Virus record (IMG/VR): IMGVR_UViG_3300032309_001546
Location: 1-64,000 of that record
From: a virus
Reading direction: 5' to 3' (one strand)
DNA: 64,000 nucleotides
In this document: in pieces, positions 196 to 40,889 of the stretch
How positions within the stretch are numbered: the stretch's first letter is position 1
How the letters are laid out: each line of letters starts with the position of its first letter
The notes under the pieces: model-generated
What the model was told of the DNA's origin: nothing
Databases searched by the model: none
The model's input: the letters and a program-made list of their open reading frames with translations, nothing else
Translations under genes and position numbers: made by a program

Positions 196-657
196 ATGGC
201 ACAAATTCATAATCCATTAGGTAAAAGAGACTATAAGGTTAGCGCTGGATGGGATCTTGTTATAAAGAAGAATGACGGAAAGAATGATCTTTTTCTTCTT
301 GGAGAAAACTCAATGGACGTGTTTGAGCAAACTATTAGGCTAGCTTTATCTACACAAAAAGGATCCTATAAACAGAATCCAACATTTGGTGCATCTCCAA
401 AGAATACGACAACCTACATGACAGCTGACGGGCTTGAAAGTATCAAATCCTTTATAATAGAAAACTTAAGGAATAGTTATATAAACCCTAATGAATATCC
501 AATGGAAGTCAAAGTTGTTCCATTGGCAAAAACACTTATTGCTATTCAAGTTATTGTATTTATTGTAACGCCAGGAGACAGCCGTTTTCTGTCTATTAAT
601 AGTATCTTTAATGAGAGTACCCAGGAATTATCTACCGTTCAGACATTTGGAGAATAG
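196..657 (+). CDS. Baseplate wedge protein, gpW/gp25-like
   Basis: This 153-aa protein has the size and layout of the phage gpW/gp25 family, the small baseplate wedge protein of contractile tails. Visible family features are the amphipathic helix DVFEQTIRLALST followed by a KGSYKQNPTFG stretch, like the T-x-x-G-E-R-x-x-x-P-x-F-G pattern of the family. A helix and a terminal beta segment come next. In T4, gp25 joins the wedge to the sheath. The next gene is gpJ-like, the order usual in myoviruses. The start follows the preceding stop without a gap. The family call comes from pattern and context; it is divergent from T4 gp25. Confidence 0.75.
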   Translation: MAQIHNPLGKRDYKVSAGWDLVIKKNDGKNDLFLLGENSMDVFEQTIRLALSTQKGSYKQNPTFGASPKNTTTYMTADGLESIKSFIIENLRNSYINPNEYPMEVKVVPLAKTLIAIQVIVFIVTPGDSRFLSINSIFNESTQELSTVQTFGE

Positions 658-659
658 AT

Positions 660-1817: not shown

Positions 1818-1818
1818 C

Positions 1819-7056: not shown

Positions 7057-7065
7057 GGAAATTGC

Positions 7066-11082: not shown

Positions 11083-11117
11083 AAATATACAAGCTGTTAT
11101 ATAAATAGGATTTTTAT

Positions 11118-13262
11118 ATGGGTATAAGTTTTACAATATCAGTCTCTGGGAAACCCATTGAGAATGAATATCCTATTGACGTTTTTGTTAGAGCAAAGCG
11201 TGATTTTATTACATGGCGTCAGAAAGTAAAAGATAGTGATGTGCAACTTGCATATTTAGAAACAGAACCAATGGTCTCTCATCTTGCTGTTGAAGTAGCT
11301 GATCATTTACAAGAATTAAGAAATTCAAATACAGAAACAATCCGTAGTACAACTGCAACTACATTGGTCTCTGAGTCTCCTAATCTTATCTTTACAACTG
11401 TTGTAAGAGATACAAACTTTGGCAGTACACCAGCATTCTATTCACATAGAGTACCTGTTAACGCAACAAAGGTAACTTTTTCTCCTTGGAATAAAGCAAT
11501 AGATTCAAGTGTTGCAATGTTTGATACGTATTACAGTGCTGTGTTTTCTGATTTAGAGAACTACATTGATCTGGATACGGGAGCTTACAATGCTTCCTAT
11601 GTCAAATATACAAGTGTTAATTCTGAAGGGGATGTAGAAGTAAAGACAGAAGTCTATAATAGACAACCTTTCTTTCGGCAAATGACTTCATTTGATTTAG
11701 AGTTTGATAGCAGCCTTGGTGATTTCTTTGTTGCTCCTAATAAAGGTCTCTACCAAAAAACTTTGCAGCCAAATGGTAAATGGCTTTATCAGATATATAA
11801 AGATCCAGACGTTGTTCTTTATTATAAAGAAGATATGGAGTCGACCGGCAAAGTAACAGTTTCTGAAAATATCAAGAGTGAATATTTCTGGCCACTAGAA
11901 ATAAAAGGCTCAGGAGTTATCTATTCAGTCGATATTGGTGACGACGCAGAAAAACAAAAGTACACTTATGATTGGGCTGATGAAAGAGTTGACTACTTCC
12001 CATATGCTCCTTATGTAACTATAAAGAAAGAAGCTTACATTATAAATAATCAAACTCTTCTTGTAGCTGATAAGAACATTGTCTTAGATCCAACCTTAAA
12101 TATCCACTTAACATTAAGAGTAATGAGAGATGGAAAGATTCTATTTGCTCAGACCACTAGGCCTGAGATCCTTGATCTTAGAATTTCAGGTTCTTACTCC
12201 AATGAAGATATTGTTAAGTATGAAGCTTTTACTGGTAACGTAGATTATTCTCTTGGTGTAATCTCGCTAGTTTCAAGCTACCCTCTAATGATGACCGATA
12301 AGGTCTTGATAGAGTATGTTGTAGAGCAGGCGCGTTCTGAGAAAGTTATTGCTAATGTTAACCCGGGGCAAAACAAGAAACTACTAACAAGCAATCTATT
12401 GTATTACGCTACACCAGTGGTAGGTGAAGTTAAGTCGAAGATTTTTTGGGTATCTTATCAGAAAGCTTTCAACACAATAACTAACGACTTTGATTTCTTT
12501 GTGGTAGATACAAATGACTCAGTTGTTAATCCTTACAAAGGAAAGCTATTAAAAGTTCTTATTGAAGAATGCTTTGCAAGAGATCCCTACTATGACTTTC
12601 ATAGTACAAACATTTATAATTACTTGCCAGTTGCAACTGTTTCTTTTGATAAGCATAGATATTTAAAGAAAGTGCAGCATAAAGATCTTAGAGTTTTCTC
12701 AGGATTAAAAGATGATCTTACTCTTGAGCGTAAAGGCAAAGATTTTGCTTTTTCAAATATCTTGAATCCAGCTGGAACTTATGAATTAGATCTAGCTGCT
12801 CAGGCTGTTGTCTTTGTAGATAAGACTGAAATAGCAGAAAGAACAATTAAAGATATAGAAACTATTATTAAGGACAATATTAAGATAGGAATTATTCCTC
12901 ATGTTGTTTATCTTAACCGTCCTAAAGTTATGTTTGCTAAGTGTCAGAATATCTCTAATAATCTAGACTTCTCAGTAAAAGTAAAAGATGCTCCAGTATG
13001 GAAAACATTAAAGGTCTATCTCGCAGTTAATAAGGAAAAGATATCAACAAATGATATTGAACTTTTAGCTTTAGACACAGCAGATAATTTAATTACTGAG
13101 GGCGAAGATGGATGGTCAATTCTTGGTAATGGTATTGACCCAGATGTTTTATCAGGAAGTGCAGTTAGAGATAGTAAATTATATTTTTATACAAAATGGG
13201 TAAACTCAGATAGTACTGTTGAAAGCGATACAAGCAGTATCTCTTGCGTTCATGTTAAGTAA
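11118..13262 (+). CDS. Large structural protein, unrecognised
   Basis: A 714-aa protein with no recognised domain. The N-terminal 100 residues look like a short beta segment followed by a helix (HLAVEVADHLQELRNSNTE), which could dock to the baseplate. The remainder is beta-rich with repeated FxxxY patterns. The start is supported by AGGA about 8 nt upstream in the 35-nt gap after the giant tail gene. The gene sits in the middle of the tail block and is assumed to be a virion protein. Confidence 0.65.
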   Translation: MGISFTISVSGKPIENEYPIDVFVRAKRDFITWRQKVKDSDVQLAYLETEPMVSHLAVEVADHLQELRNSNTETIRSTTATTLVSESPNLIFTTVVRDTNFGSTPAFYSHRVPVNATKVTFSPWNKAIDSSVAMFDTYYSAVFSDLENYIDLDTGAYNASYVKYTSVNSEGDVEVKTEVYNRQPFFRQMTSFDLEFDSSLGDFFVAPNKGLYQKTLQPNGKWLYQIYKDPDVVLYYKEDMESTGKVTVSENIKSEYFWPLEIKGSGVIYSVDIGDDAEKQKYTYDWADERVDYFPYAPYVTIKKEAYIINNQTLLVADKNIVLDPTLNIHLTLRVMRDGKILFAQTTRPEILDLRISGSYSNEDIVKYEAFTGNVDYSLGVISLVSSYPLMMTDKVLIEYVVEQARSEKVIANVNPGQNKKLLTSNLLYYATPVVGEVKSKIFWVSYQKAFNTITNDFDFFVVDTNDSVVNPYKGKLLKVLIEECFARDPYYDFHSTNIYNYLPVATVSFDKHRYLKKVQHKDLRVFSGLKDDLTLERKGKDFAFSNILNPAGTYELDLAAQAVVFVDKTEIAERTIKDIETIIKDNIKIGIIPHVVYLNRPKVMFAKCQNISNNLDFSVKVKDAPVWKTLKVYLAVNKEKISTNDIELLALDTADNLITEGEDGWSILGNGIDPDVLSGSAVRDSKLYFYTKWVNSDSTVESDTSSISCVHVK

Positions 13263-13270
13263 GGTAAGTA

Positions 13271-14416
13271 ATGAATCTCTCTTGGTTTAGTACAAATTCT
13301 TTTGCGAGCGCAAGTGATCTGCTGAACACTAACACTACACTTTCAACTGACTATACTGGCAATCTAATCGACTACCAGGATATGTGGGTGTCAAATAATG
13401 GCTATGAAGATAGCACTGGGAATCTTATTGACTTTGGGTTCTATGTGTCTGGGCTTGATATTAATGCCTATAACGAACTGCTTAAATTAGGTAGTGTAGC
13501 TGATGCATCTGATGTGTACTGCGGACTATATGTTATATTTGGATATACAACATCTACAGGATCACAGTCTTGGATTGATAAGTTTGAAACTTCAATAGCA
13601 AATGAAGAATATACTTTTCTTAATATTCCTAGTTCAGTTATGTATAGTGCACCTGCTTCAGGTGCTACTTTTAACTTTACTTTACCTCTTGGCTCTACAG
13701 GAAGTTATACTGTTCCTATGGTTGATATTGCTTCAGGCGGGACTGGCTATGCAGTAGGAGACAGTTGCTATGTTAGTGGTAGTGCACTAGGTGGAGTTGA
13801 TTCTATTAATGATGCTTATGTAACTGCAAGTACAGTAACAGGAGCAAGTAGAACTTATACCAATATCTTTATACCGGGCGGATTGGGCGGATATTGCAGC
13901 GTCACAGTCTCTGCAGGGGGGGTATACTCAGTAAGTCTTACCTCAGGAGGAGCAGGCTATACAGCAAGCTCACAGACTATAAGTGGAGAGGTCCTGGGAG
14001 GAACAAGTCCAGCTAATAATTTAACTGTATCAATTGGAGTAACTGGCGGCGGTGTAATTAATAGTATCTCAACGACAAGCACAAACGGAAAGATAAGAGG
14101 TGCTATTGCTAGTGTCACTGTTACTGGAACCCATGAAAATCCATCTTATATATTTAACTCAAATTATGCTAAGTTTAGAGTGAACTGGGACGCCGGCACT
14201 AATATTTTAAATAAGATTAACATTAGCTCAGCGTATACATATAATGGCTCTACTTATGTATTAAGAAATACTTTTCCAGTAAATGAAGGTAGTTCTAATG
14301 CTAATGATGAGACAAAAGGAAGACTTAAAGTTAGATTTATAATAAAGTCTCCGCCTGCTGGTAGTTCTATACTGAGTAAGATAACACTGAATGCGGCAGC
14401 ACTTGGGGAGCTATAA
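13271..14416 (+). CDS. Glycine-rich tail fibre protein with GGxGY repeats
   Basis: A 381-aa protein. Residues about 155-260 hold two copies of a glycine-rich unit: the first contains ASGGTGYAVGD and ends in SGSALGG; the second contains TSGGAGYTASS and ends in SGEVLGG. Such GGxGY units are common in phage tail-fibre and adhesin proteins, where they form beta-helical or polyglycine-sandwich structures for surface binding. The N-terminal 110 residues and the C-terminal 100 residues look like separate beta domains. The start is preceded by GTAAGGTAAGTA. Function as fibre or receptor-binding protein is inferred from these repeats and from position. Confidence 0.65.
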   Translation: MNLSWFSTNSFASASDLLNTNTTLSTDYTGNLIDYQDMWVSNNGYEDSTGNLIDFGFYVSGLDINAYNELLKLGSVADASDVYCGLYVIFGYTTSTGSQSWIDKFETSIANEEYTFLNIPSSVMYSAPASGATFNFTLPLGSTGSYTVPMVDIASGGTGYAVGDSCYVSGSALGGVDSINDAYVTASTVTGASRTYTNIFIPGGLGGYCSVTVSAGGVYSVSLTSGGAGYTASSQTISGEVLGGTSPANNLTVSIGVTGGGVINSISTTSTNGKIRGAIASVTVTGTHENPSYIFNSNYAKFRVNWDAGTNILNKINISSAYTYNGSTYVLRNTFPVNEGSSNANDETKGRLKVRFIIKSPPAGSSILSKITLNAAALGEL

Positions 14417-14419
14417 ACA

Positions 14420-14797
14420 ATGCAATGGCGAGAAAACTCTACTGATTCTTTTGTTAGTATAACATCTGTACCGCTTTATCAAAAAAGATTAAGCAGACTA
14501 GAGTTAAAGATAAATAATAAGATTATTCAGATTTTATTGTGTGGAAATTTTTCTGTAAAAAAAAGAAAAGTTGTACTACATGGTATAGTTAGAAACACTT
14601 ATAAAATCTCAATCAATGAGATGTCTAATGACATTACATTTTTAGAAGTATCTGGGGATCCTTTCTTTGTTGAGATATATGCGCTCACAAAAGCTCCCAA
14701 GTTATTTTCTGGAAATATTACTAAGAAGTTACTAGTTAACAAAAAGCATCTAAGAGTAGATATAGTATTGGATAATAATGGAAAGATAGTTAACTAA
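14420..14797 (+). CDS. Small unrecognised structural-block protein
   Basis: A 125-aa basic protein with no recognised family. It has a central beta-strand pattern (RLELKINNKIIQILLCGNF) and a lysine-rich composition unlike its acidic, Gly/Ser-rich neighbours. It could be a small adaptor between the fibre protein upstream and the large proteins downstream. It starts 3 nt after the fibre gene's stop. Confidence 0.6.
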   Translation: MQWRENSTDSFVSITSVPLYQKRLSRLELKINNKIIQILLCGNFSVKKRKVVLHGIVRNTYKISINEMSNDITFLEVSGDPFFVEIYALTKAPKLFSGNITKKLLVNKKHLRVDIVLDNNGKIVN

Positions 14798-14806
14798 AAG
14801 GTTGCA

Positions 14807-16123
14807 ATGAAAATCAATTTTGAAAATCAATTAGTCTTTCTTTCTGTGCCCACTACTGATCTTAGTGGGGCCACTTTAGATGGCAAAGGTAAGATGCAAA
14901 TGTTTGAAAAAGCATTAATGGACTTAGAGCAGAAGTATCTAGCAGTGAGCAATGAGTCTGCACGCCTAGGAACAAGACAAAAAGAAGATGTATCTAACTT
15001 CTTAGACTTTACAAATAAAGAATTAATGGAAAGCTTATTAGTAAATTTTCCTAGTATACAATCAGGAATGATTGATACAGTTCCTTTATTCTTAAATGGA
15101 AAACCTCTTAATGGTAGTACTACAATAACATTGTCAGGTGCGACTGAAGACTTTGAAATTTCTCCTGTAAAGAAAATGTTTAAAGAGACAGCTAATATTT
15201 ATCTGGGTGATCTTGGTGAGGATTTACCATACACTTTTGTAAGTGTAAAAATTGATCAACCTAAGCTTGTCTCTTCCTTTTCTGTGCATAGAAATCTAGC
15301 AGATTTAAAATTAATAAAGTGGAAGAATAGTGATCAGGTCTGGGAAGATTATGATGCTCTTCCTGGATTTATACAGTATCAAAATGTTACGTTCCTAGAC
15401 ATTGAGACGAATGAGATTTCTTTTTATGTAAGAAATAATAAGATTAATAATCGCTACTACTGTGATTTGAAAGTTATTCCTTTTTATAAAACATATGATT
15501 TTACTGGAACAAGTTTTTTCTGGGATAAAGACTTACCAATCAATGGAGTATATGCAATAGCCTTTGATTCAGAGATGCCGTTCTATATTGAATTGAAAAT
15601 TATAATTGACAAAAGAGAATACAACGTACAGTTACCAGCAACAAACAATGCACTATCAAGAATGGAAGTAGAGGCATATACATCCAGTGGTAGTAATACA
15701 GAGACTATTTTTAAATGCCCATATCCAGTGGATCTAAGTCAAAGCTTATCTCTCTTGAAAGACATATCAAACTCAAATGAATCGACTGCGCTAACTGGAT
15801 GGTCTGTGAGTCTAGACAAGATAACTTGGCTCTCAGAAAGCCAAGCTGACCAATTAATATATGGAACTGATTATAGTAAAAAATCAAAGTTTACTTATTT
15901 TAAAGTTCCAGGATATTATGAAAATGCTTATCTTTTATATAGACTAAATAAGAACGTTAATTCAAATTGGTTTATAACAAATAATGAAGTCTTGTTCTTC
16001 AACGGGAGCGGAATAAGTATTAATAACAAACTAGGAAGTTCTGTCAAGATAAGCGGTAAAGCATATTGCTTTGGCTCTAATTCGAGTGATGTGTTTCCTC
16101 TTGGCGTTTTAGGAATTGACTAA
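14807..16123 (+). CDS. Unrecognised tail protein
   Basis: A 438-aa protein. The first 90 residues contain a likely helical segment (MQMFEKALMDLEQKYLAVSN); the rest is beta-rich. No catalytic motif, signal peptide or membrane segment is visible. The start has AAGGTTGCA upstream, and the stop overlaps the next start by one base (TAATG). It forms a coupled set with the next two genes; all three share the layout of an N-terminal helical region followed by long beta domains, which suits fibre or collar proteins. Confidence 0.65.
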   Translation: MKINFENQLVFLSVPTTDLSGATLDGKGKMQMFEKALMDLEQKYLAVSNESARLGTRQKEDVSNFLDFTNKELMESLLVNFPSIQSGMIDTVPLFLNGKPLNGSTTITLSGATEDFEISPVKKMFKETANIYLGDLGEDLPYTFVSVKIDQPKLVSSFSVHRNLADLKLIKWKNSDQVWEDYDALPGFIQYQNVTFLDIETNEISFYVRNNKINNRYYCDLKVIPFYKTYDFTGTSFFWDKDLPINGVYAIAFDSEMPFYIELKIIIDKREYNVQLPATNNALSRMEVEAYTSSGSNTETIFKCPYPVDLSQSLSLLKDISNSNESTALTGWSVSLDKITWLSESQADQLIYGTDYSKKSKFTYFKVPGYYENAYLLYRLNKNVNSNWFITNNEVLFFNGSGISINNKLGSSVKISGKAYCFGSNSSDVFPLGVLGID

Positions 16124-18708
16124 TGCTAGAAAAACTAAATTTAAAGCTCAAAGATATTGATGCTAAACTAAGTAGTCCTGATGTGTTTCAAGAAAGTTTT
16201 ACTACTTTCTTAGATGACACTGATACAAAGACAATTCATCGTCATACTAAGTTAGACTTTGAGAATACAGCTATCCCTATAATCAGACTTCTTGATATTA
16301 TGGCAAATCTCCAAGGCATGATGACTGACTTGAATAAGTTACAAGTTAAATTCTACAATAACAGAGAAGTACAAATGGGTCTTATGAAGGATAGAGTAGA
16401 AGTTCTCCATTTAAGGAGAAAACTTTTATCTTCCCTTGAGACAGGAATTCGAACTGGTTTACTTTGCCTGAATGATAAAAAAATGTTAAAGATTGGAAGC
16501 AGTTATGAGATTGACTCTAATGGTATTTCCTTTCCACTTATAGAACAGAAAAGAATTGTTCCAGTGTCGGTAACTTTTTCAAGAGACAGCAATGTCAGAA
16601 TGGGTATGCTTGGTAATGAATTTTTAAATTCTAGAGTTCAAGCAATACATACAGAGAGCCAGAACGATACATTCTCAGCACATAGAACAGACTTAGAAGA
16701 CATTTATATATCATTCAGCTCAAAGCTAGGAAGAATGGAAATTATAAATGAAGTAGACTTTGCTTGGATTGAGAAGCCTGGACAAACAATATCTTTAAGA
16801 ATTAAAGATTCTTTAACAGGTAGAATCCTACATGATAAACCTGTAGCAGAATCTATTATTAAATTAGACTATCCAGTTGAGACTAATGAGATTGCAGTAG
16901 AAATTAAAGCAACTGGGATTGAGGTAAACCAGTTAGATATAAAAGAGTTGTCTCTTCATCAAAGAAAATACAAAGATACTCTTAAAATAGAAACAGTTGC
17001 ATTGCCAAGCTTTTCCAATAAATACTTAACTTTCGAAAATGTAAAGTACAAGGTTGACTATCATAAAGATTTCTTAGATACAACTGTAAGAGTAAAAGAT
17101 TTTAAGCTAAACAACCTAGCATCTGAAGAGCAGATTGGCGGACCATATAAAGATCCAGTCTTTATTATTGAGTCGAAGCTAAAGAATAAAGCAAACATAC
17201 TTAATTACTTACAGAAGCCTAGTTATACTTCTACTAAGCTAGTTCCATCAGAGCCAAACTATAAGACTTTCCTAGAGCTAGCAACCGCCAAAGCATTCTC
17301 TTTAACACAAGAGAAGCAAGGAAGCAATTCAATCTATATGATATTGCCTATTCCGGGTATGGAATGCTTTATAGATGTTAGTGTTGATGGTGTAAGCTTT
17401 GTGCGTCGCTTGTCAAGTGAAGTACTATGGGATAAGGAATACTTTATACAGTACACTGGAACTGGATATCTATTGACGTTTAATAACCTACCTTGGAAGA
17501 GTGTGGTGACTTGCAAAGTCACATCAATGCCTTCTTATATTGATAAAGATAAAATCTACTTTCCCTATGCCGGTCTTGGTACCCAGATAGCAGTATCTTA
17601 CGCAAAGGATATAAGAAAGAAAAAAATTGCAATTGTTACTTCTGATGGCAATATACTAGATCTAAAGGTAAAGAACATACAGAGAGTAGCTTTCATTGAT
17701 AGAAATGGAGTTGAGAACACTAGCTATTCTGAAAGAAGAATAAGTGATACTCTTACTGCTAATAACTATGCAATAGATTATAAATCTGGTTTACTTTATT
17801 TTGGTTCTGGGATCTCTGGATTTGCTGAAGTAACATATTTACTTCCTGCTAATACTAGTTCAATTGTTTTATATGAAGAAAAAGACATACCTTGTCCTGC
17901 TGATATTGAAGTATTTGAATATAGCGGCCTATTAAGCAGCTTTGATATTTCATCAACAGAGATAAACAATAGTCATATTTTTGGCTATCAAAAGTACAAT
18001 AGAATTCTAGGGAAGGTGAATACTGCGCTGGGTATGATTCAGCTTCCTAATTTTATATCTTTGCATAAAGGTTCTGTTTCTCTTGGTAATTCGACTTTAA
18101 AGAAAAAAGAAGTTGAATATATTGATGGTACAAGTGAATTGTACAACAGAGAAATTGAATCAAACTATTATGATTATGAGAAGACAGAATTTGGATGGCA
18201 TATTTATAAATTCAGAAGCGCAACCTTGCCAGTAGCTTATGAGAAGTGTAATCTTGTCTTTGAAAGTCCATTTCTAATACAAAGAAAAGAAATTGGAAGT
18301 GGATTGAGTAGTTCCATCGTCAATGATGGAGATTACTATATAGCTCCTGCTACTCCTGCGCATCCAGAAGCTGTATTGTTATATGTAAAAAATGCAGGAT
18401 TCCCTACAGTTCCGGCTGCGAGTATTAAAGTTAGAATTGAGAAAGATATATCTGATGACGTGTTCAGCGTAGATTACACAAGCAATGTAATATATACAAA
18501 AAATCTAGAAGATTTTGCTGGAGATATTAAATTTAAGTATAGTACATTCAGACTTTATCAGTTTAGTCTTGCTCTTGAGGTTGACAGAGAAGACGTAGCA
18601 TCAGGTAATGTTTATTACTCCTATGTTAATAATATTAAAACTGGAGAAAGATTACTATCATATTTCAGTCCAACATTTGAATCTATTTCAATAGGGATAA
18701 TTGGCTAA
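16123..18708 (+). CDS. Large tail/fibre protein with helical N-terminus
   Basis: An 861-aa protein of unknown family. Residues about 50-110 form a probable coiled coil (RLLDIMANLQGMMTDLNKL, then REVQMGLMKDRVEVL). The following part (about 125-290) is beta-rich and ends with a short strand motif typical of discoidin-like or carbohydrate-binding beta sandwiches; this domain idea is only an impression. The stop overlaps the next start (TAATG). Its size and order match the peripheral tail proteins of large myoviruses. Confidence 0.65.
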   Translation: MLEKLNLKLKDIDAKLSSPDVFQESFTTFLDDTDTKTIHRHTKLDFENTAIPIIRLLDIMANLQGMMTDLNKLQVKFYNNREVQMGLMKDRVEVLHLRRKLLSSLETGIRTGLLCLNDKKMLKIGSSYEIDSNGISFPLIEQKRIVPVSVTFSRDSNVRMGMLGNEFLNSRVQAIHTESQNDTFSAHRTDLEDIYISFSSKLGRMEIINEVDFAWIEKPGQTISLRIKDSLTGRILHDKPVAESIIKLDYPVETNEIAVEIKATGIEVNQLDIKELSLHQRKYKDTLKIETVALPSFSNKYLTFENVKYKVDYHKDFLDTTVRVKDFKLNNLASEEQIGGPYKDPVFIIESKLKNKANILNYLQKPSYTSTKLVPSEPNYKTFLELATAKAFSLTQEKQGSNSIYMILPIPGMECFIDVSVDGVSFVRRLSSEVLWDKEYFIQYTGTGYLLTFNNLPWKSVVTCKVTSMPSYIDKDKIYFPYAGLGTQIAVSYAKDIRKKKIAIVTSDGNILDLKVKNIQRVAFIDRNGVENTSYSERRISDTLTANNYAIDYKSGLLYFGSGISGFAEVTYLLPANTSSIVLYEEKDIPCPADIEVFEYSGLLSSFDISSTEINNSHIFGYQKYNRILGKVNTALGMIQLPNFISLHKGSVSLGNSTLKKKEVEYIDGTSELYNREIESNYYDYEKTEFGWHIYKFRSATLPVAYEKCNLVFESPFLIQRKEIGSGLSSSIVNDGDYYIAPATPAHPEAVLLYVKNAGFPTVPAASIKVRIEKDISDDVFSVDYTSNVIYTKNLEDFAGDIKFKYSTFRLYQFSLALEVDREDVASGNVYYSYVNNIKTGERLLSYFSPTFESISIGIIG

Positions 18709-20588
18709 TGAATATAAATTATGAAAATAAATTATTCCATGGAGAAATTGATAATAACATCAAGGATGAATCCTTTCTTCATATCACAGATGTTTATACT
18801 AGCCCAGGTTTGTTTTCTGGAAAGCTAAATGAATTTAGGCAAAGAGTTCTTGCCTTGAGAGATAAGATTTACTCACAGGCTGTAGAGCTCGAAGAGGAAA
18901 TTATAAAATGGAATTCAGACTTTACAAAGATTCAACTAGGAGTTGAAGAGCTAGAAAGTAAAGTAAATGATGATTTGTTTTTGCGCAGTGACTCTGATGG
19001 GTACTATAAAACTCTTAATGAGAATTTCACAAAAGACCAAGGCGTATCTTATACTGACAGTAATAATGTTCTTGTAGATTTAACTTCTAACCTAGTTAGA
19101 CTAGAGACAGCAAGTGCCGAAAAGATAGCTTTAAAAAGTGAAAAGTATTCAATTGGAATAGTTAAGCCAACAAGTTCTGTTCAAGAAAGAGTTATTCCTG
19201 TTGCTGGAAGTGACTTAGCTAGCCTTAGCCAAGACAACTCTGCTGGGTGGACTGGCTCTATAACAAGTGCTAATCGAGCTCCTGTTTCTATTATGTTTGA
19301 AGTAACAATGAATACAACGGACTTTGTTTCTAATGTTGTCTTCTCAATGATGAATGGAGCGGGTAGTGCATCTCTGTCTGCTGTTACTATTGACTTAGAG
19401 AATAAAGCAAAAGTCATAATGGAGAATGCAGATGTTTCAAATACGAATATCATCGCAGTAAATGCTTCTGTTAAGAAGATTCAAATAATTATCTTTAAGA
19501 ACTCTTACGACCAAAGACTAGATAGCGGAGAGTATAGATATATTTTTCATATAAAGAAATTGCTTGTTGAAGGTGATAGTGTTTACAAGCAGAATGGAAC
19601 ATTCTCAAGTTCAGACTATACGGTCTCAAACGCAAGTAAAGTTGCAGTTGAAGTCTGTGACTTTGTAAACGATGCAACAAACATTCAATACTATTTGAAT
19701 GTTACAAATATGATAGATGGCTCAGTTTTTACAACACCAATCAATCCATTAAATAAGCCTCCGGGTTCGAGTCCCTATGCACTAAAGCTTACTGATTTAC
19801 AAGTATCTTCAAATTTGAATTCAGTTATAAGACCAGTTTCTGAAAGATCTAGCACTGAGATTATTGACATTCCTAACAATTTAAAGTTACTAAACTTTAC
19901 TAATGAATACAAAATCTTAAACTATACTGCTGCTCTTAATAAGAGCAATATTGGATCAGTAAACTTCTTTGCAAACTATATAGATGGATTATCCAATCCT
20001 TTAGATATCATTGAAAGAGTAGGAAGTTTTTACTATAGCTGGGTCTATATTAGTGGTGAAAGTAAACAGTCCATTGATGTAGGCAATTCCGGTATTACAA
20101 TTCAGGGACTTACAACATCAAATGGAATTATTAATCTAGATAAGACAGGCTGGTTCAAGATGAAGATTCCAGTATCTTCATACTATGACTCTGGTAAGAC
20201 TTTCGAATCAGTTGAAGAGTTGCAGGCTCTTGATCCATTGTATCCATATAATGGTAAATATATACTTGAAGGAACAAACTTACAGGTTGCACCTTATTTT
20301 GGATTCAAAAAGCGAGCAAAGAAAAAGTTGAACATGGTTGCAAATCTTCAGCAAATAGATGTAAATAGTTTTTATTTAATGAGAGACCAACCATTGGCAG
20401 GTGATTACGATATAAAAAATAAGTTTTATATTATCTTAGATAAGAGCACTGATATAAAGAATGGGTATTTTGAATACCAAAATCAAAATGATTTAATGTA
20501 TCTTCTAAAGTTCATTGCTAAGTTCACAACAAGTGACAAGACACAAACACCCATTTTGTCAAGCTATAAAATTAAACTAGGAGACTAG
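18708..20588 (+). CDS. Tail/fibre protein with N-terminal coiled coil
   Basis: A 626-aa protein. Residues about 40-95 show heptad-like spacing of hydrophobic residues (FRQRVLALRDKIYSQAVELE and onward), indicating a trimeric or dimeric coiled-coil stalk. The rest is beta-rich, Ser/Asn-rich and resembles virion fibre proteins. It is translationally coupled to the preceding gene and followed after 1 nt by the next fibre gene. No specific family is recognised. Confidence 0.65.
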   Translation: MNINYENKLFHGEIDNNIKDESFLHITDVYTSPGLFSGKLNEFRQRVLALRDKIYSQAVELEEEIIKWNSDFTKIQLGVEELESKVNDDLFLRSDSDGYYKTLNENFTKDQGVSYTDSNNVLVDLTSNLVRLETASAEKIALKSEKYSIGIVKPTSSVQERVIPVAGSDLASLSQDNSAGWTGSITSANRAPVSIMFEVTMNTTDFVSNVVFSMMNGAGSASLSAVTIDLENKAKVIMENADVSNTNIIAVNASVKKIQIIIFKNSYDQRLDSGEYRYIFHIKKLLVEGDSVYKQNGTFSSSDYTVSNASKVAVEVCDFVNDATNIQYYLNVTNMIDGSVFTTPINPLNKPPGSSPYALKLTDLQVSSNLNSVIRPVSERSSTEIIDIPNNLKLLNFTNEYKILNYTAALNKSNIGSVNFFANYIDGLSNPLDIIERVGSFYYSWVYISGESKQSIDVGNSGITIQGLTTSNGIINLDKTGWFKMKIPVSSYYDSGKTFESVEELQALDPLYPYNGKYILEGTNLQVAPYFGFKKRAKKKLNMVANLQQIDVNSFYLMRDQPLAGDYDIKNKFYIILDKSTDIKNGYFEYQNQNDLMYLLKFIAKFTTSDKTQTPILSSYKIKLGD

Positions 20589-23068: not shown

Positions 23069-23602
23069 ATGAAATATACAAGTGAAATAAACAAGTATGA
23101 CACGGTTGATTACTGTGTCTATAGCGACATGTCTACTCAAGAAGCAACAGTAAATAATGCAAAGTATGTTATGCAATTCGATACGTTTGAGGAAGGTCAT
23201 AACATTACTGTTGAGCCTGATAGCCAAAGTCCTACGCCTAAGCCTACTAAGATTACAGTTAATAGAACTGGAGTATATAACATTGCATTCTCTGCTCAGT
23301 TAGATAGAGTTGCAAGTTCTGGCCATGCTGAAGTGAATATTTGGCTTAGAAAGAATGGGGAAACATCTGTATACGACGTACCAAGAACTGGTACTAAAGT
23401 TACATTAACTGGAAATATAAGGGCAGCTAAAGTCGTAGCAGCATGGAATTTCGTAGTTAGTGCGGAGGCGGGTGATTACTTTCAGTTAATGTGGAGCCCG
23501 ACTGATCATAATATTCATATTGTCAAAGGAGATGCAGTGACAACCCCAGGAAGCGAAAGACCGGCTATACCAAGTGTTATATTAACTGTATGGAGACTTT
23601 AA
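23069..23602 (+). CDS. Virion protein with C1q-like jelly-roll domain
   Basis: A 177-aa protein whose residues about 35-177 match the C1q/TNF-like jelly-roll seen in many phage adhesins. It shows TGVYNIAFSAQL, then NIWLRKNGE, then a GDYFQLMW strand, and the closing IPSVILTVWRL. In phages this fold caps tail fibres and binds the cell surface. The start has GGGGGC 4-8 nt upstream. It is the last structural gene before the lysis genes. Confidence 0.75.
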   Translation: MKYTSEINKYDTVDYCVYSDMSTQEATVNNAKYVMQFDTFEEGHNITVEPDSQSPTPKPTKITVNRTGVYNIAFSAQLDRVASSGHAEVNIWLRKNGETSVYDVPRTGTKVTLTGNIRAAKVVAAWNFVVSAEAGDYFQLMWSPTDHNIHIVKGDAVTTPGSERPAIPSVILTVWRL

Positions 23603-23617
23603 TTTTTAGGAGTTATT

Positions 23618-24166
23618 ATGTCAAATCAAAATCTTGTAGATATTGCGCTAAAAGAAGTTGGCGTCCGTGAAGTTCCTATCAATAGCAATAGAGGTCCTCG
23701 TGTTGAGGACTTCCAGAAGTACGTCGGTGCTTGGCTTGTAGGTGCCGCCTGGTGCGCTGCCTTTGTGGCTTGGGTCTTCGGGCAGGCCTATCCTGGTGCT
23801 AACCCTGCTGGAAAGCAAAGCTCAGCCGTAATGGGCTTCTGGACGCGTAATGCAGGCCGTGCAGACTTTGTTCGCTTCTTACCTGCTGATGTAAAGTCTG
23901 GCAAGTATAAGATTGAGCCAGGTGATCTATTTGTATTATGTAGTGATCCTGTTAAGGTACCTCTAGTTCAGGTTGGCAGAGTCAAAGCACATACTGGTCA
24001 CATTGGTATCTGTGATGGTGCTATGCTTAGTGCTACTAAGTTCGGCACCGTAGAAGGTAATACGAATGAAGCTGGTAGCCGTGAAGGTGGTGGCGTCTAT
24101 CATCGCTCACGTAGCCTTGATGAAGCTAAGCTTGTAGGATTTGTACGTTATCTAGGTAAGAAGTAA
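23618..24166 (+). CDS. Endolysin, CHAP-type amidase/endopeptidase
   Basis: A 182-aa peptidoglycan hydrolase. The cysteine-histidine catalytic set is visible: Cys46 in GAAWCAAFVAW, His128 in TGHIGI and a polar third residue in VEGNTN (Asn148). This arrangement is that of CHAP/NlpC-like endolysins, which cut peptide bonds in the cell wall. There is no signal peptide, so release would need a holin; the next gene is a holin candidate, overlapping by one base (TAATG). The gene is visibly GC-richer than its neighbours (for example around 23730-23810), suggesting acquisition from a different source. A strong AGGAG lies upstream of the ATG. Confidence 0.88.
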   Translation: MSNQNLVDIALKEVGVREVPINSNRGPRVEDFQKYVGAWLVGAAWCAAFVAWVFGQAYPGANPAGKQSSAVMGFWTRNAGRADFVRFLPADVKSGKYKIEPGDLFVLCSDPVKVPLVQVGRVKAHTGHIGICDGAMLSATKFGTVEGNTNEAGSREGGGVYHRSRSLDEAKLVGFVRYLGKK

Positions 24167-24465
24167 TGTTCAACCTCTCTGCTATACTTTTTAAAAGATT
24201 TAGTGGAGCTTTTCTTGGGGACAAAAGCAACTACATTAGTCGTAAGCTTGGTTTGGTATACTGGGCCTTGCATACATTAACGTTCTTATATCTTATGAGT
24301 CCTATTGGACAAGCTACTGGTCTCTACATTATTCCTCAGCTAATGGGTGATGATGTATTTACTGCAGCTTTTGTAGGGCTTGTAGGATTATATATGGGTG
24401 CTAATGTTATAGATAGAACACGAGGCACAGATACAAATCTTAAAGAAAATAAAGTGGAGGACTAA
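24166..24465 (+). CDS. Holin candidate (small membrane protein)
   Basis: A 99-aa protein with two likely membrane helices: about residues 28-48 (LVYWALHTLTFLYLM) and 60-80 (VFTAAFVGLVGLYMGANVI). A charged C-terminal tail follows (DRTRGTDTNLKENKVED). Size, two-helix topology and direct coupling to the endolysin gene fit a class II-type holin that opens the inner membrane for the endolysin. No sequence family is recognised, so the call rests on topology and context. Confidence 0.6.
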   Translation: MFNLSAILFKRFSGAFLGDKSNYISRKLGLVYWALHTLTFLYLMSPIGQATGLYIIPQLMGDDVFTAAFVGLVGLYMGANVIDRTRGTDTNLKENKVED

Positions 24466-24666
24466 ATGGCCATTGAGAATAATTATGTTCTAGAAAGAAT
24501 TGCAGCTATTGAGAAGCGTATTAATGATCTTCAAAAGATTATTGAGAATATTCCTAAGCTACGCCAGGTTGGCGCGCTAAAAGCAACGATAGAGCAAGAG
24601 CAGAAAGACTTGACTGCTAAAGTATTTGATTTAACTGCTAGAGTTGAAAAACTTGAAAATAAGTAA
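24466..24666 (+). CDS. Small coiled-coil protein after holin
   Basis: A 66-aa protein that is nearly all heptad repeat (ERIAAIEKRINDLQKIIENI, later FDLTARVEKLENK), so it should form a coiled coil. It lacks a signal peptide, lipobox or membrane segment, so it is not an ordinary spanin. It may act as an antiholin partner or lysis accessory because it is the last gene of the lysis set and directly follows the holin candidate. It is followed by the terminator of the + strand block. Confidence 0.6.
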   Translation: MAIENNYVLERIAAIEKRINDLQKIIENIPKLRQVGALKATIEQEQKDLTAKVFDLTARVEKLENK

Positions 24667-24686
24667 GTTAAATTAGATAGGAATAA

Positions 24687-24718
24687 AAAACCCCAGCCAA
24701 ACCAATGACTGGGGTTTT
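24687..24718. terminator. Bidirectional Rho-independent terminator between convergent blocks
   Basis: The arms AAAACCCCAG and CTGGGGTTTT pair perfectly over 10 bp around a 12-nt loop. The T-run follows on the + strand and, because the stem begins with A residues, also on the - strand. It lies between the last + gene and the last - gene, so it can end both converging transcripts. Confidence 0.9.
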
Positions 24719-24735
24719 CTTTTGTCTATTCTAAG

Positions 24736-25149
24736 TTAGACGATTGTGATTGTCATTTTTAATGACGAAGTGTCTAGCGATCCGCTTAAAGCATTATCAT
24801 AGTCAATAGCAAAATACTCTGTCGTAATTGGAAATGTTACATCAACAGTCTCGTAAGAAAGTACTTGAGCAGGAGTACCAGTAAGTATTGCTTGCTCAAC
24901 TTCAACCAAAGTAGAGCCAAACCAAAGGTTAAAAACAATACTTTGACTATCGCTATCATAGGCTTGGATTCTTATACTCTTTGAGCGGCCTTGAGATGCA
25001 CTAAGACTACTGCAATTAATTATAGTAGCTTGACTACCATCTCCCGCACCATTTGTAATAAATGGAAGCTCAGCAAGTGAGAAATACTCGCTGTGATGGT
25101 AAGTCAGCATTTCCTTATTAACTTTCTCACCATAAGTTAAGCCAGGCAT
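24736..25149 (-). CDS. Unrecognised protein, possibly structural
   Basis: A 137-aa protein, the last gene of the - strand block. It is beta-rich with Ser/Thr/Asp-rich turns and reads like a small virion or decoration protein, but no family is recognised. Its start overlaps the stop of the upstream gene by one base (TAATG). It has no signal peptide or membrane segment. Confidence 0.6.
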   Translation of the reverse strand: MPGLTYGEKVNKEMLTYHHSEYFSLAELPFITNGAGDGSQATIINCSSLSASQGRSKSIRIQAYDSDSQSIVFNLWFGSTLVEVEQAILTGTPAQVLSYETVDVTFPITTEYFAIDYDNALSGSLDTSSLKMTITIV

Positions 25150-25649
25150 TATTCAGACTCCTCAGCTGAAACGTCTTGGCTCTTCTTTGACTTACGCTTC
25201 TTTGGAGCTTCGTCTGCTTCCTTCTCTGTAGCTAACACGTCTTCTTGAGGTTCCTCTAAGACAGTATCAGAAACTTCTTCTTCCGCAGCTATAACCTGAG
25301 CAGCGACAACTGAAGCTTCCTCTGCTTCCTTCTCTGCATGAACCACTGGCTCGTATCTCTCTTCAACTTCAACTTCTCCTGTCTCTCCTAGAATGCTCTT
25401 AGCAAAGTCAAGAGTCTTCTTAAGATTCTTTAGACCCATGAAGTTTAAAAGCATCTGACTCTTCGGAGGTGGCTCTGTAATAAGAGGAACAATCTTTGTG
25501 ATGACAAGACCATTCTTGACGAAACTTGGATTGACATAGAAGCGAAAATCAGTAGCTCCCAGTGCAGAGCCAATGCGAATTGCCTCTTTAACTGTGTTTA
25601 GATTTTCTTTAGAAAGGTCAACTAATTTAATATCCTTATCAGCGCTCAT
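25149..25649 (-). CDS. Acidic protein with charged low-complexity tail
   Basis: A 166-aa protein of unknown function. I start it at the ATG giving MSADKDIKLVD, preceded by AAGGA 5 nt away, not at an upstream TTG. Residues 1-90 form an alpha/beta domain; residues about 90-166 are Glu/Ala/Val-rich and end in a basic patch (KKRKSKKS) with an acidic tip, so this part is probably disordered. The upstream intergenic region carries the palindrome cluster described separately, so this gene and the last gene may be regulated there. Confidence 0.6.
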   Translation of the reverse strand: MSADKDIKLVDLSKENLNTVKEAIRIGSALGATDFRFYVNPSFVKNGLVITKIVPLITEPPPKSQMLLNFMGLKNLKKTLDFAKSILGETGEVEVEERYEPVVHAEKEAEEASVVAAQVIAAEEEVSDTVLEEPQEDVLATEKEADEAPKKRKSKKSQDVSAEESE

Positions 25650-25689
25650 AGTATTCCTTACAATATTAACAAAATATTTGTGTAATTGC

Positions 25690-25721
25690 AGCAATAAATA
25701 TTGCTAGTATTGCATGCAATA
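25690..25721. promoter_or_regulatory. Two adjacent palindromes built from TATTGC/GCAATA
   Basis: A 16-nt inverted repeat (AGCAATA-AA-TATTGCT) is followed after 2 nt by a perfect 14-nt palindrome (TATTGCATGCAATA). The hexamer TATTGC or its complement occurs four times in 32 bp. The site lies in the 93-nt gap between two - strand genes, 40-70 nt upstream of the start of the acidic-protein gene. It looks like an operator for a dimeric regulator; as a terminator it would lack a clear T-run. Confidence 0.5.
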
Positions 25722-25742
25722 TATTATCTTTATCGCCGTTCA

Positions 25743-26288
25743 TTACTTGGTGATGGTATTGCGTCTACGTAGAAATAGAAAAGTACCAACTATAGCAAAA
25801 AAAGCGAAGACACTAGCAGTATTAGAAACAACTGAACACCCAGCTTCGTCCTTGCTTTTATCGGCAGCGACGGCCGCTCCTGAGCCGCTACCGTCTGTCT
25901 CGGGGAGAGCGGTGTCAGCGCCAGCATCAGCGCCAGAGCCGCTACCATCTACGGAAACAACTTCACCTGAACCAGAACCGCCACCTGTAGGTTCGCCAGA
26001 TCCACAATCAGGATCAACGGTAGCTGAACCCTCGGCACCTGAGCCTGAACCTGAAGTAGCGGTATCGCAAGGAGCAGGAACTGCCTCGGGGACGCAAGCA
26101 AGTAGCTCTGTAGCACAGGAGTCACATGCTGAACCTTCAGCACAGGGAGGGCACTCAGCGCTACCCACAGCAGCACAGACTTCACCAATAGCGCAGTCAG
26201 CAGTTGTGACGCACTCAGTGGCATAGGCAGTTGAAGCTACAAGTAGAGTAGCAAGAAACGAAACTAGGGAAAACTTAATCTTATTCAT
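25743..26288 (-). CDS. Secreted Cys-rich surface protein with MYXO-CTERM-like sorting signal
   Basis: A 181-aa protein started at MNKIKFS, which has GGAG 6 nt upstream; in-frame starts 4 and 6 codons earlier lack this. Residues 1-23 are a Sec signal peptide ending in AYA. Next comes a Cys-rich region (CVTTADCAIGEVC, then PPC, SAC, DSC) like those of delta-proteobacterial surface proteins. A long SGSG/Gly-rich spacer follows. The C-terminus is a tripartite signal: GCS, a hydrophobic helix (ASVFAFFAIVGTFLFL) and RRR. This layout matches MYXO-CTERM-type signals, where a sortase-like protease cuts near the Cys. The gene is much GC-richer than its surroundings, so it was probably taken from a host. 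It may alter the cell surface during infection. Confidence 0.75.
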   Translation of the reverse strand: MNKIKFSLVSFLATLLVASTAYATECVTTADCAIGEVCAAVGSAECPPCAEGSACDSCATELLACVPEAVPAPCDTATSGSGSGAEGSATVDPDCGSGEPTGGGSGSGEVVSVDGSGSGADAGADTALPETDGSGSGAAVAADKSKDEAGCSVVSNTASVFAFFAIVGTFLFLRRRNTITK

Positions 26289-26310
26289 TTTAATCTCCAT
26301 TATCAATTAA

Positions 26311-27030
26311 CTAGTTAGTAGGAAGAACAACTGCATAATAAGCAGGGTTCCATGAGAGATGCTTATATATATCTTTCTTTAATGCGTTGTATACTTTTTC
26401 GGGGTTACCGAATGTTGCAAGTTCTGCTTTACGAGCAATCCATTCCTTATCAAGACGAGCCTTAAGCTCAGGCTCTTTTGAAGTATGGTCTGCAAGTAGC
26501 TCAGCACGAGTCTTATCTTTGCTTACAAATATATCAAGAGTCCAGAACCAACGAGTATTGCCATCTACAACCTTTGAGTCCTGGCGATAACTAAAACCAA
26601 TTGCCTTGCTATTGTTATAGACAAGCTTACTAATTAGTTCCGCAGCCTCTAACTTACTAATCTTAGTAGGATTAGCAACTTCATGCTTCACAGGAATATA
26701 ATCATAGCTAGGTCCACAAACAAGACGAAGTTCAGTGAGGTTACCATACGAGCTAATAGCAGTATGGATACTAGTTGTTAAGAGCTCTTGCTTAGTAAAA
26801 GCTTCGCCACCCGGCACCATCAAAGCAGGATTAGTAAAAACATGAATGTTAGAACTAACAGGAGCAAACTCCTTCATCTTGTTTACAATGTCAGTCTGCG
26901 AAGTTGCATTGACAATAATGTTTTTAATCTCGGGTTGGTCTTGTAGCTCACGTCTTAGATCTTCAGTTAGAAGCTCTTCACCTGAAGGTCTTCCACTTAC
27001 AACTGCGGTCATCCCTTTTGCTTTTGCCAT
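26311..27030 (-). CDS. Unrecognised protein
   Basis: A 239-aa soluble protein with no family I recognise. It has an alpha/beta N-terminal half and a basic, Trp/Tyr-containing C-terminal half (KDIYKHLSWNPAYYAVVLP). A GGAGAC ribosome site precedes the ATG. No catalytic motif is evident. It lies between the GC-rich surface-protein gene and a small gene next to the RusA-like resolvase gene. Confidence 0.65.
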   Translation of the reverse strand: MAKAKGMTAVVSGRPSGEELLTEDLRRELQDQPEIKNIIVNATSQTDIVNKMKEFAPVSSNIHVFTNPALMVPGGEAFTKQELLTTSIHTAISSYGNLTELRLVCGPSYDYIPVKHEVANPTKISKLEAAELISKLVYNNSKAIGFSYRQDSKVVDGNTRWFWTLDIFVSKDKTRAELLADHTSKEPELKARLDKEWIARKAELATFGNPEKVYNALKKDIYKHLSWNPAYYAVVLPTN

Positions 27031-36863: not shown

Positions 36864-39278
36864 TTACTTTATTAAGGTAATTTTTCCGACTGGGCGAATC
36901 CTTAAGAAATCATCTTTCTTAGTTGCTTTGTAGGAGAAAAATAATAGGGAACAATAGTCAAGCTTTTCTTTCAGTTCTTCGTATTGATCTGAGAACAGCG
37001 TGACTTCTGATATAGAAGATAAATCTTCGATTGTCAATGTTGCCATTAATTTTCCTTTTGATTTACCGCTTTTGATTTGCTGTTCTTTAATATGAGATAC
37101 CGCGACGAGCAGATTGCCTTCGTTGCTATTTGTCTCATCAATATCTTCTATCTGATTAATTAAGATTCCGGGTGGAGTCTTAGTAATATAAGATAGTGGA
37201 TGGCGACTAATAAAGAACTTACAATACTCTGATTCCCACTTAACAATTTGCAGTGGGACTTTATAGTCAGACGTTTTCTTGATAGATTCTAGGTCAGGGA
37301 AAGTAGGCTGATCAGGAACTTTAAGAACTAATGGCTTCTTAGGTCTTGGTTCTGAATACACTTTCTTACCATCTGAGTCTATACTTAAACTAATTACGCC
37401 TGCCTTTAATCTTGCAGACCAATCGTCGAGCAAGGCGGGATAAGCATCTACTTCCTTGTTACGCTCAAAGGCTTGAACTATTCTTGTTTGATAGTTTTCA
37501 ACCTTTGTATAGTAATCAAAGATATCAGAAAGCTTATCTACAAGCTTGACTCTGTCGTAGCCAAAGCTATCGAATGCGCCGACCTTTGCAAGTATACTAA
37601 CAACACCAGAATTAATCTTTGTGCGATTGATTCTAGTAAAGAAGTCAGCCATGCTTGTAAAAGACTTGCGACCGCGTGCCTTAAGTATAAGGTCACTAGC
37701 TTTGTTACCGATGCCATTGATCATGCCAAGGCCAAACAAGATAGTATTGTCATCCAACTTAGTAAAACCAATATCACTATTGTTAATACTAGGTGGAAGA
37801 ATGTTGTAACCCATCTGGCGATACTCGTTGATATATCTGACTAGCTTCTCAGGCTTACCACTTCTGACAGTCATTAGCGTAAGCATAAAGTCTGTAGGAT
37901 AGTAAGTCTTAAGATAAGCATTGAAGTAAGTAATGAAGGCATAAGCAAGAGCATGACTCTTATTAAAACCATACTCAGCAAATGCTGCAATGACATTCCA
38001 AATACGAGTTGCCTCTCCCATATCAATCTTATGAAGACGAGCACAGCCATCTACAAAAAGTGTGCGATATTCTGCCATCAATGTAGCATCTTTCTTGCCC
38101 ATTGCTTTTCTAATCTTATCAGCCTCTTGGAGTGTTACTCCTGCAAGTATCTGACAAGCGGCCATAATCTGTTCCTGATAAATAAGAACACCGCCGGTCT
38201 CAGCAAGTACATCATCAAGTAATGGATGTAACTTATTCTGAGTCTGACGAGTCTTCTTATAGTCAATGTAGTCCTGAAGCAGACCTGAGTCACGAGGACC
38301 AGGACGATTAAGAGCTGAGAAAACTGCAAGATCCTGGACACTCTGTGGCTTGAGATCGGCTACAAGTTTTAGTAGATAAGTCTCTTCCATCTGGAATAAG
38401 CCAGCTGTGAATCCTTTATTGATTAATTCAAACACATTGGGATCATCAGTAGGAACTTCTTCCTCTAGCCACTTGAGTGACTTACCAATACGCTTACAAG
38501 TAAGATCGTTAATTGTAAGGCAATCGATTCTAAGAATGTCGAACTTAATAAAGTTCATTTTCTCTAGAGTTGGACCTTCCCATTGGGTAAGATTGAACCA
38601 GTCTGCGCCTTCAGTCTTGCTCTTCCGGATTGGAATCATCTGATCTACTGGACTTGTGCCAATAAGAACTGCACTAGCATGAACGCTAACTTCCTTTGCT
38701 TGTCCATCTACTGGTCCGCAAAGGCTAAAGATATCTTGATTAGCTTCTACAATCTTTTTGATGTGTTCGCTATTGTCTTCGATTAGTTCTTTATAAGTTA
38801 CATACTTGCCACGGTGACTTTCAGGCAAGCTGTCAGCTAACCGTTCCGCATCGGCAATAGTTCTATATGTGCCATCTGCATGCTTAAGTAACTTAGTGAA
38901 AGCTTTAACGCTTGTCTTAAGAGACCAAGGCTTATAGGTAGATACACGAAGAACACGATCATGACCATACTTAGTTTGCAGTGCCTTGATTAGATCATCA
39001 GCACGAACATTACAAAAGTCAGTATCGATATCCGGGCCTTCGCCATCAACATGATAAGTAACACGCTCATCCGGATTATAAGTGTCAGACAAGCCAAGCG
39101 CATATAGTAATGCAGAGTTACTTTTATTAGCAAGTTTTGCTTTAGACTCAAAGGCCTTGTTGATAAAAGCTAGAGTTTCATCGGTAAGATACCTGACCTC
39201 AAAGTCCAAGTAGTCTTTGCTTATTACATTTAATCTATCATCTGAATAGAATTTATTAAGGTTTTTCTTGTTGATCAT
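36864..39278 (-). CDS. dnaE: DNA polymerase III alpha subunit, C-terminal half (split DnaE)
   Basis: An 804-aa protein containing the catalytic half of a bacterial-type DnaE. The active-site motif GPDIDTDF lies at residues 81-88. The thumb/fingers region follows (FSALNRPGPRDSG, GGVLIYQEQIM, AFAEYGFNKSHALAYAFITY), then a helix-hairpin-helix-like part (FGLGMINGIGNKASDLIL) and a C-terminal OB domain (GKLMATLTIEDL). It lacks the PHP and first palm parts, which are encoded by a separate upstream gene, so the enzyme must be assembled from two chains. The first 75 residues have no counterpart in one-chain DnaE. The start overlaps the small intervening gene by 23 nt. Confidence 0.93.
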   Translation of the reverse strand: MINKKNLNKFYSDDRLNVISKDYLDFEVRYLTDETLAFINKAFESKAKLANKSNSALLYALGLSDTYNPDERVTYHVDGEGPDIDTDFCNVRADDLIKALQTKYGHDRVLRVSTYKPWSLKTSVKAFTKLLKHADGTYRTIADAERLADSLPESHRGKYVTYKELIEDNSEHIKKIVEANQDIFSLCGPVDGQAKEVSVHASAVLIGTSPVDQMIPIRKSKTEGADWFNLTQWEGPTLEKMNFIKFDILRIDCLTINDLTCKRIGKSLKWLEEEVPTDDPNVFELINKGFTAGLFQMEETYLLKLVADLKPQSVQDLAVFSALNRPGPRDSGLLQDYIDYKKTRQTQNKLHPLLDDVLAETGGVLIYQEQIMAACQILAGVTLQEADKIRKAMGKKDATLMAEYRTLFVDGCARLHKIDMGEATRIWNVIAAFAEYGFNKSHALAYAFITYFNAYLKTYYPTDFMLTLMTVRSGKPEKLVRYINEYRQMGYNILPPSINNSDIGFTKLDDNTILFGLGMINGIGNKASDLILKARGRKSFTSMADFFTRINRTKINSGVVSILAKVGAFDSFGYDRVKLVDKLSDIFDYYTKVENYQTRIVQAFERNKEVDAYPALLDDWSARLKAGVISLSIDSDGKKVYSEPRPKKPLVLKVPDQPTFPDLESIKKTSDYKVPLQIVKWESEYCKFFISRHPLSYITKTPPGILINQIEDIDETNSNEGNLLVAVSHIKEQQIKSGKSKGKLMATLTIEDLSSISEVTLFSDQYEELKEKLDYCSLLFFSYKATKKDDFLRIRPVGKITLIK

Positions 39279-39570
39279 AATCGTCCAATAAACAATGTTT
39301 AAGAAATACTTGTCTGAAAAGATTTAAAGTTTCCTTTTTCTTCTCAGAGTCACTTGTCCAGTAATGACGAAAAAATAAATACAAAAAAGTAAAGAATGGA
39401 ACTTTATAGATCCAACCTAATTTTTCATGCCAAGTTTGAGTATGGTCTAGCGTAAAACTTTTTACTGGAGAAAAAGTCTCAGTTTCTTTGTTCCAAGTAT
39501 ACTTCTCTTTAAAAACTTTTCTGTAAGATAACTTCTCAGGTGTATATACTATAGACTTTTCATTAGACAT
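39256..39570 (-). CDS. Small protein encoded between the DnaE halves
   Basis: A 104-aa protein of unknown family, started at the ATG in AAAATGTCTAATG, which overlaps the stop of the N-terminal DnaE gene by 8 nt; a TTG two codons earlier is less likely. It overlaps the C-terminal DnaE gene by 23 nt. It is basic and aromatic (KLGWIYKVPFFTFLYLFFRH), and has no intein, homing-nuclease or membrane signal that I can name. Tight overlaps on both sides suggest the three proteins are made together and that this one may be a subunit or assembly factor of the split polymerase. Confidence 0.65.
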   Translation of the reverse strand: MSNEKSIVYTPEKLSYRKVFKEKYTWNKETETFSPVKSFTLDHTQTWHEKLGWIYKVPFFTFLYLFFRHYWTSDSEKKKETLNLFRQVFLKHCLLDDYDQQEKP

Positions 39571-40846: not shown

Positions 40847-40889
40847 ATTATTCTCTCGTTTAAGTTTAAAGATTAATAAAACACCAATA

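Follow-up and report, generated by a model that had tools for sequence, protein, structure and literature searches.

The gene, its neighbours and the carrier phage

On the minus strand of the window (the whole stretch of 64,000 nucleotides analysed here), at 25743..26288, lies a gene for a predicted exported, Cys-rich protein of 181 amino acids with a Gly-Cys/transmembrane/RRR end. The ORF, conserved in four relatives (L001-L004), runs from an ATG at 26288 to a stop codon at 25743-25745 (181 codons), with a GGAG ribosome-binding site (26295..26298) 6-7 bases 5′ of the ATG; this site and the protein features that follow are likewise on the minus strand. The product begins with a Sec signal peptide, MNKIKFSLVSFLATLLVASTAYA (residues 1-23; 26220..26288), delimited by eye and near-invariant in relatives, with an MNKIK n-region, a 14-residue hydrophobic core and, by inspection, an A-Y-A cleavage site of the A-X-A type. 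A Cys-rich domain (residues 24-78; 26055..26219) has nine invariant Cys and the lowest dN/dS of the gene. It is followed by a spacer rich in Gly, Ser, Asp and Ala (residues 79-149; 25842..26054), with indels and faster change among relatives, and by a MYXO-CTERM-like end (residues 150-181; 25746..25841) composed of GCS, a hydrophobic helix and RRRNTITK, compared as isolated tails with the TIGR03901 model. The ectodomain has ten Cys, at residues 26, 32, 38, 46, 49, 55, 58, 65, 74 and 95; the lone Cys outside this set, Cys 151, sits exactly at the C-terminal tag. Residues 26-38 form a C-x5-C-x5-C pattern (C-x4-DC-x2-G-x2-C), part of a single Myxo_Cys_RPT-like repeat, ECVTTADCAIGEVCA (26172..26216), that is matched by TIGR04201 over the stretch ECVTTADCAIGEVC.

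The initial annotation of this DNA had described the gene, its signal peptide, Cys pattern, Gly/Ser spacer and GCS/helix/RRR end, all of which are present in the sequence. It is the sole ORF among those surveyed to combine a signal peptide, a long ectodomain and a C-terminus of this type, and we consider it very probable that the product is exported and membrane-anchored. Structure prediction gave a pLDDT of 45 and nothing but two helices, so that a fold for the head was not obtained, and a search of solved structures with the protein returned no credible match. An LPETD in the spacer was considered as a sortase motif and rejected: it reads LTETD in L002 and lies about 30 residues from the helix.

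The gene sits between probable lysis genes and the replication block, convergent to the former. The lysis genes (23618..24666, plus strand) encode a CHAP-like endolysin, a small membrane protein that may be a holin and a coiled coil, on the basis of weak TIGR02594 and CHAP matches and of membrane segments. The upstream neighbour (26311..27030, minus strand) is conserved at 88-92% identity in comparison with relatives. Both downstream neighbours, which separate the gene from the lysis genes, are on the minus strand and highly diverged: one (25149..25655; 44-48% identity) has no family match, and the other (24736..25149; 34-79% identity) is a predicted beta-sandwich (pLDDT 79) with generic jelly-roll-like matches, duplicated in L001 (11129-11566 and 11686-12114). 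Values of dS are mostly 0.2-0.9 in the lysis genes and the gene of interest (23069-26306) versus 1.6-1.9 in 26311-27030, and these lower values amid diverged genes suggest modular exchange in the region 23069-26306.

The source is a lake phage of a contractile-tailed lineage without a close isolate. Genes for TerL, portal, major head protein and tail sheath are present in its record, together with genes of replication and nucleotide metabolism: a DnaE-type polymerase, a primase with a partial DnaB-like region, a RecA/UvsX-like recombinase, ThyX, a class II ribonucleotide reductase, UDG, an IMP dehydrogenase/GMP reductase-like protein and an adenylosuccinate synthetase. TerL relatives at 83-100% identity were found in 19 contigs. 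G199, another genome of this phage group, terminates in a direct repeat some 120 bases long, indicating a genome of ~174 kb. Judged by TerL, portal and tail sheath, the isolates closest to the phage are Acinetobacter phage ME3 (Metrivirus), Moorella phage MTATph1 and Bacillus phage KLEB27-3, with identities of only about 26-32% in partial alignments of the proteins; all three are without a relative of the gene of interest. L014 and L015 were rejected as distant phage relatives, since they have only two short primase stretches and one ThyX-like gene in common with the phage. The DnaE-type polymerase is in two ORFs on the minus strand (36864-40852), with PHP and the start of the polymerase in 39563-40852 and the rest in 36864-39278; a small ORF (39256-39576) lies between them. 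The IMP dehydrogenase/GMP reductase-like gene (57098-58171, minus strand) and, in the same phage, the adenylosuccinate synthetase gene (L005:1289-2350, minus strand) form a pair reminiscent of purine-altering phages, e.g. those with 2-aminoadenine DNA.

Conservation and base composition

Relatives of the gene were found in four IMG/VR contigs of 112-176 kb, at 81-88% identity. The L001 and L004 proteins are identical, which leaves four distinct homologous sequences including that of the window. The gene is single copy in all five phage records covering the locus, among them the window's own record of 145,919 bases, and searches using two neighbouring genes return the same four contigs; the gene thus accompanies the locus in every case in which the locus was detected. 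Phage isolates gave no homologue.

Overall dN/dS is 0.16-0.20 in five of six pairs and 0.38 in the closest. The most constrained part is the Cys-rich domain (0.04-0.14 for the five pairs that are more diverged; the near-identical pair L002/L003 gives 0.51), and the fastest-changing part is the tail helix, which nevertheless stays hydrophobic. GCS and the R-R-R/K cluster are invariant across the four distinct sequences, in which every architectural element is kept. A fast-changing helix between a kept GCS and kept R/K residues is what one would expect to see in a targeting signal, and shows that the architecture is no chance reading. On these comparisons of sequence, the gene is real and under selection.

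With a GC content of 0.523, the gene is GC-richer than the phage mean (0.394; z 2.65), as had been noticed before, but the acquisition from a host that this seemed to imply is not borne out by codon usage, which is the phage's own. Third-position GC is ordinary (0.337, versus 0.315 ± 0.064 for the phage) and the same protein recoded with phage codons still reaches a GC of 0.496; the excess therefore reflects amino-acid composition rather than recent transfer. The codon log-likelihood likewise favours the phage (-204.7) by a wide margin over its GC-rich island (-255.2).

That island is an observation in its own right. Every examined genome of the phage group has a GC-rich (0.5-0.6), fast-changing island beside the start of the late genes, with third-position GC of 0.6-0.8 versus 0.3 elsewhere. 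It was located at about 89000-109700 of G000:C1 (L006:5000 to L007:5700), 1-20000 of G197 and 115000-135000 of G199, and contains a giant ORF of 2265, 1471 and 3763 aa, respectively. The G000 version of this ORF starts with a membrane helix and has DUF4326 and YpsA/SLOG domains inside. The island may reflect a GC-rich host.

Resemblance to Myxococcota surface modules and the host lineage

TIGR04201 matches the Cys repeat in all five phage records, as the sole match in each (E 0.005-0.03; 13-16 bits). Across all searches, scores are 13.2-18.2 bits, below the cut-off of 25; one TraA repeat taken alone scores 23.6 bits. None of 40 shuffles of the Cys-rich domain matched the model, so that by the shuffles and by its uniqueness in the five records the repeat core exceeds chance.

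The tail is a weaker case. TIGR03901 has a curated cut-off of 20 bits, and isolated tails of the phage proteins score 15.5 (13.3 for a shorter piece), 18.2 and 16.7 bits, with no match for the L001 tail; matches were thus obtained for three of four tails, with E of 0.0024-0.017, all under the cut-off. As a control, the tail of Myxococcus xanthus TraA scores 20.6 bits, and about half of the TIGR03901 matches of M. xanthus itself fall below the cut-off, at 11-20 bits. TIGR03901 is not listed for the full-length phage protein, nor for full-length TraA. The full-length phage protein weakly matches two families that are MYXO-CTERM-anchored, NF045523 (E 0.0016) and NF045638 (E 0.045). Among 40 random tails with a helix and RRRN and without Cys, five match TIGR03901 (best E 0.028). 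Since random tails come near the phage score and one phage tail has no match, we regard the tail score as mostly generic; with HMM evidence only slightly better than that, we describe the tail as MYXO-CTERM-like without assigning it to the family. In alignment to the profile, the phage tail Cys falls in the column holding the Cys of TraA. The single-Cys form also occurs in several genuine Myxococcota tails, e.g. GGCSSTGAGAPAGMLALALLSLLHRRRR in L103, and the Cys-to-Arg distance is 23 residues in the phage versus 22 in the single-Cys GCS tails L103, L104 and L111. The MYXO-CTERM match proposed in the initial annotation accordingly stands as far as motif, helix and Arg end go, and falls short in the TIGR03901 score. 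The result named there as refuting it, an absence of Cys-anchor HMM matches with homologues confined to ordinary phages lacking a signal peptide, was not obtained: such matches do exist below cut-off, and a signal peptide is present in every phage homologue.

TraA of M. xanthus is the prototype MYXO-CTERM protein and a receptor of outer-membrane exchange. It combines both modules, a Cys-repeat stalk and then a MYXO-CTERM anchor, and the likeness to Myxococcota surface proteins that had been pointed out is therefore two-fold, in Cys repeat and tail. There is no significant pairwise alignment between the phage protein and TraA (best E 0.066), and neither the TraA N-terminal domain (TIGR04566) nor the full-length model NF033759 is listed for the phage protein. 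By these comparisons the phage protein is not a TraA.

Of 195 Myxococcota genomes, 191 have a TIGR04201 match at E≤0.01 and 181 a TIGR03901 match, and neither model matches any of 14 control genomes at this threshold; at a lax E≤10 control genomes also match, never above cut-off. That a small protein unites two independent features of Myxococcota type is the best evidence, of an indirect kind, on host lineage, and leads us to favour somewhat a host from the Myxococcota or close kin.

The suggestion that the same protein might occur in candidate hosts found no support: no homologue was detected in genome_contigs or in the 195 Myxococcota genomes, the latter with a profile that recovers all five phages. 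Phage TerL was not found in these 195 genomes, nor was a credible DNA link to them (query, window 1-20000). A 28-base match in G177 was rejected as a CRISPR or DNA link: it lies at a start codon, is not accompanied by a repeat array, and is a chance match of AT-rich sequence. A composite query of phage core pieces against genome_contigs found relatives by its TraA part alone; a 25% match in L033 looks spurious and was rejected as a phage-core relative. One TraA-type MYXO-CTERM end, sharing 88% identity with the M. xanthus one, was seen in a record titled Comamonas sp. KCTC 72670 (L023; BNCN01000005.1), which is probably mislabelled or contaminated.

Proposed function and comparison with known systems

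Our preferred reading, with a probability of roughly 0.5, is that the gene encodes an envelope protein that the phage supplies to a Myxococcota-like host, perhaps for superinfection exclusion. The host Sec system would export the protein and the C-terminal helix would hold it in the inner membrane. A host myxosortase, if present, would then act at Cys 151, by lipidation and cleavage, and the processed protein would reach the outer-membrane surface in the manner of TraA. The use we consider likeliest is that the disulfide-type Cys-rich head, carried there on a flexible spacer of about 70 residues, would bind or mask a component of the infected cell's surface, thereby blocking adsorption of further phages. 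The even number of ectodomain Cys, together with the lone Cys at the tag, is counted in favour of this reading. The parts of the scheme differ in strength. Whether the tag is handled by a myxosortase we judge to be evenly balanced, and sortase-like processing of the Cys, as put forward in the initial annotation, is an interpretation of the tag and not an observation. No phage-borne CPBP protease (PF02517) was found in the five phage records, which are possibly incomplete, so that processing would rely on the host's enzyme. A role in superinfection exclusion is doubtful; its basis in the genome is location only, beside two very fast-changing genes.

The generic share of the tail score bears directly on the main alternative, an ordinary type I inner-membrane protein with a periplasmic head, in which helix and RRR are a stop-transfer anchor and the Cys is incidental; such a protein could, for example, keep the DNA of a second phage from crossing the inner membrane. 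Generic tails score nearly as high against TIGR03901, and other anchor families (LPXTG, PVV, PGF and GVDTG) also match the phage tails weakly. Set against this, Gly-Cys-Ser is invariant amid a freely changing helix, its Cys falls in the Cys column of the profile, and the same protein contains a Myxococcota-type Cys repeat. We rate the type I explanation as unlikely, though to be taken seriously.

Two other explanations start from location and from TraA. The gene lies beside the probable lysis genes, and the window offered no other recognisable spanin candidate, as would suit a lysis protein resembling a unimolecular spanin: anchored in the inner membrane, it could extend its head to the outer membrane on the long flexible spacer when the cell lyses. 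A u-spanin requires an N-terminal lipobox, however, and the phage protein has the C-terminal helix but lacks the lipobox (A-T-E precedes the first Cys). Being convergent to the lysis genes, the gene is also not in the lysis operon, and to our knowledge its Cys-rich, SG-linked layout is unlike that of known spanins; we hold this explanation to be very improbable. The shared modules of TraA would likewise fit a captured fragment of a host surface receptor, a TraA-like stalk and anchor competing in cell-cell contact or outer-membrane exchange, but the TraA alignment is not significant and the TraA N-terminal domain is missing. The codons bear no host signature, which makes any capture an old one, and capture too strikes us as improbable, at nearly the same low level as a spanin.

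Placement of proteins in the host envelope by phages is known for proteins with an N-terminal lipid. Should the envelope protein of our preferred reading be sorted through its C-terminal Cys tag, it would represent a new route. Among titles and abstracts mentioning myxosortase or MYXO-CTERM, we found no phage protein with a C-terminal Cys sorting tag. In its most ambitious form, which we consider speculative and unlikely to hold in full, the protein would be the first of a lytic phage to be displayed on the surface through myxosortase sorting, as a reduced TraA-like stalk that blocks other phages or disturbs contact-dependent outer-membrane exchange in a Myxococcota host. The gene would also supply sequence-based host evidence for an uncultured ~174 kb phage lineage, since nearly all Myxococcota genomes examined have both modules and none of the control genomes does.

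Compared with TraA, the phage protein has the same two modules in a quarter of the length, without the TraA N-terminal domain. Compared with Myxo_Cys_RPT (TIGR04201), it has one incomplete repeat (profile positions 4-18 of 22), whereas TraA has nine. With the MYXO-CTERM tag (TIGR03901 / TIGR03382), on whose Cys-containing motif myxosortase MrtX acts (Guo, Haft & Wall, PMC11980579), it has in common a Sec signal peptide, a motif with an invariant Cys, a transmembrane helix and an Arg-rich extreme C-terminus; it differs in scoring under the cut-off, in being phage-encoded with no homologue in Myxococcota genomes, and in that its processing is only predicted. T5 Llp (PMC9586334) and Ltp of a Streptococcus thermophilus phage (PMC3952083) are superinfection-exclusion lipoproteins. 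T5 Llp / Cor and Ltp are likewise small phage proteins placed in the host envelope, and the analogy is of function only: they are N-terminal lipoproteins, whereas the protein described here lacks a lipobox and has its anchor at the C-terminus.
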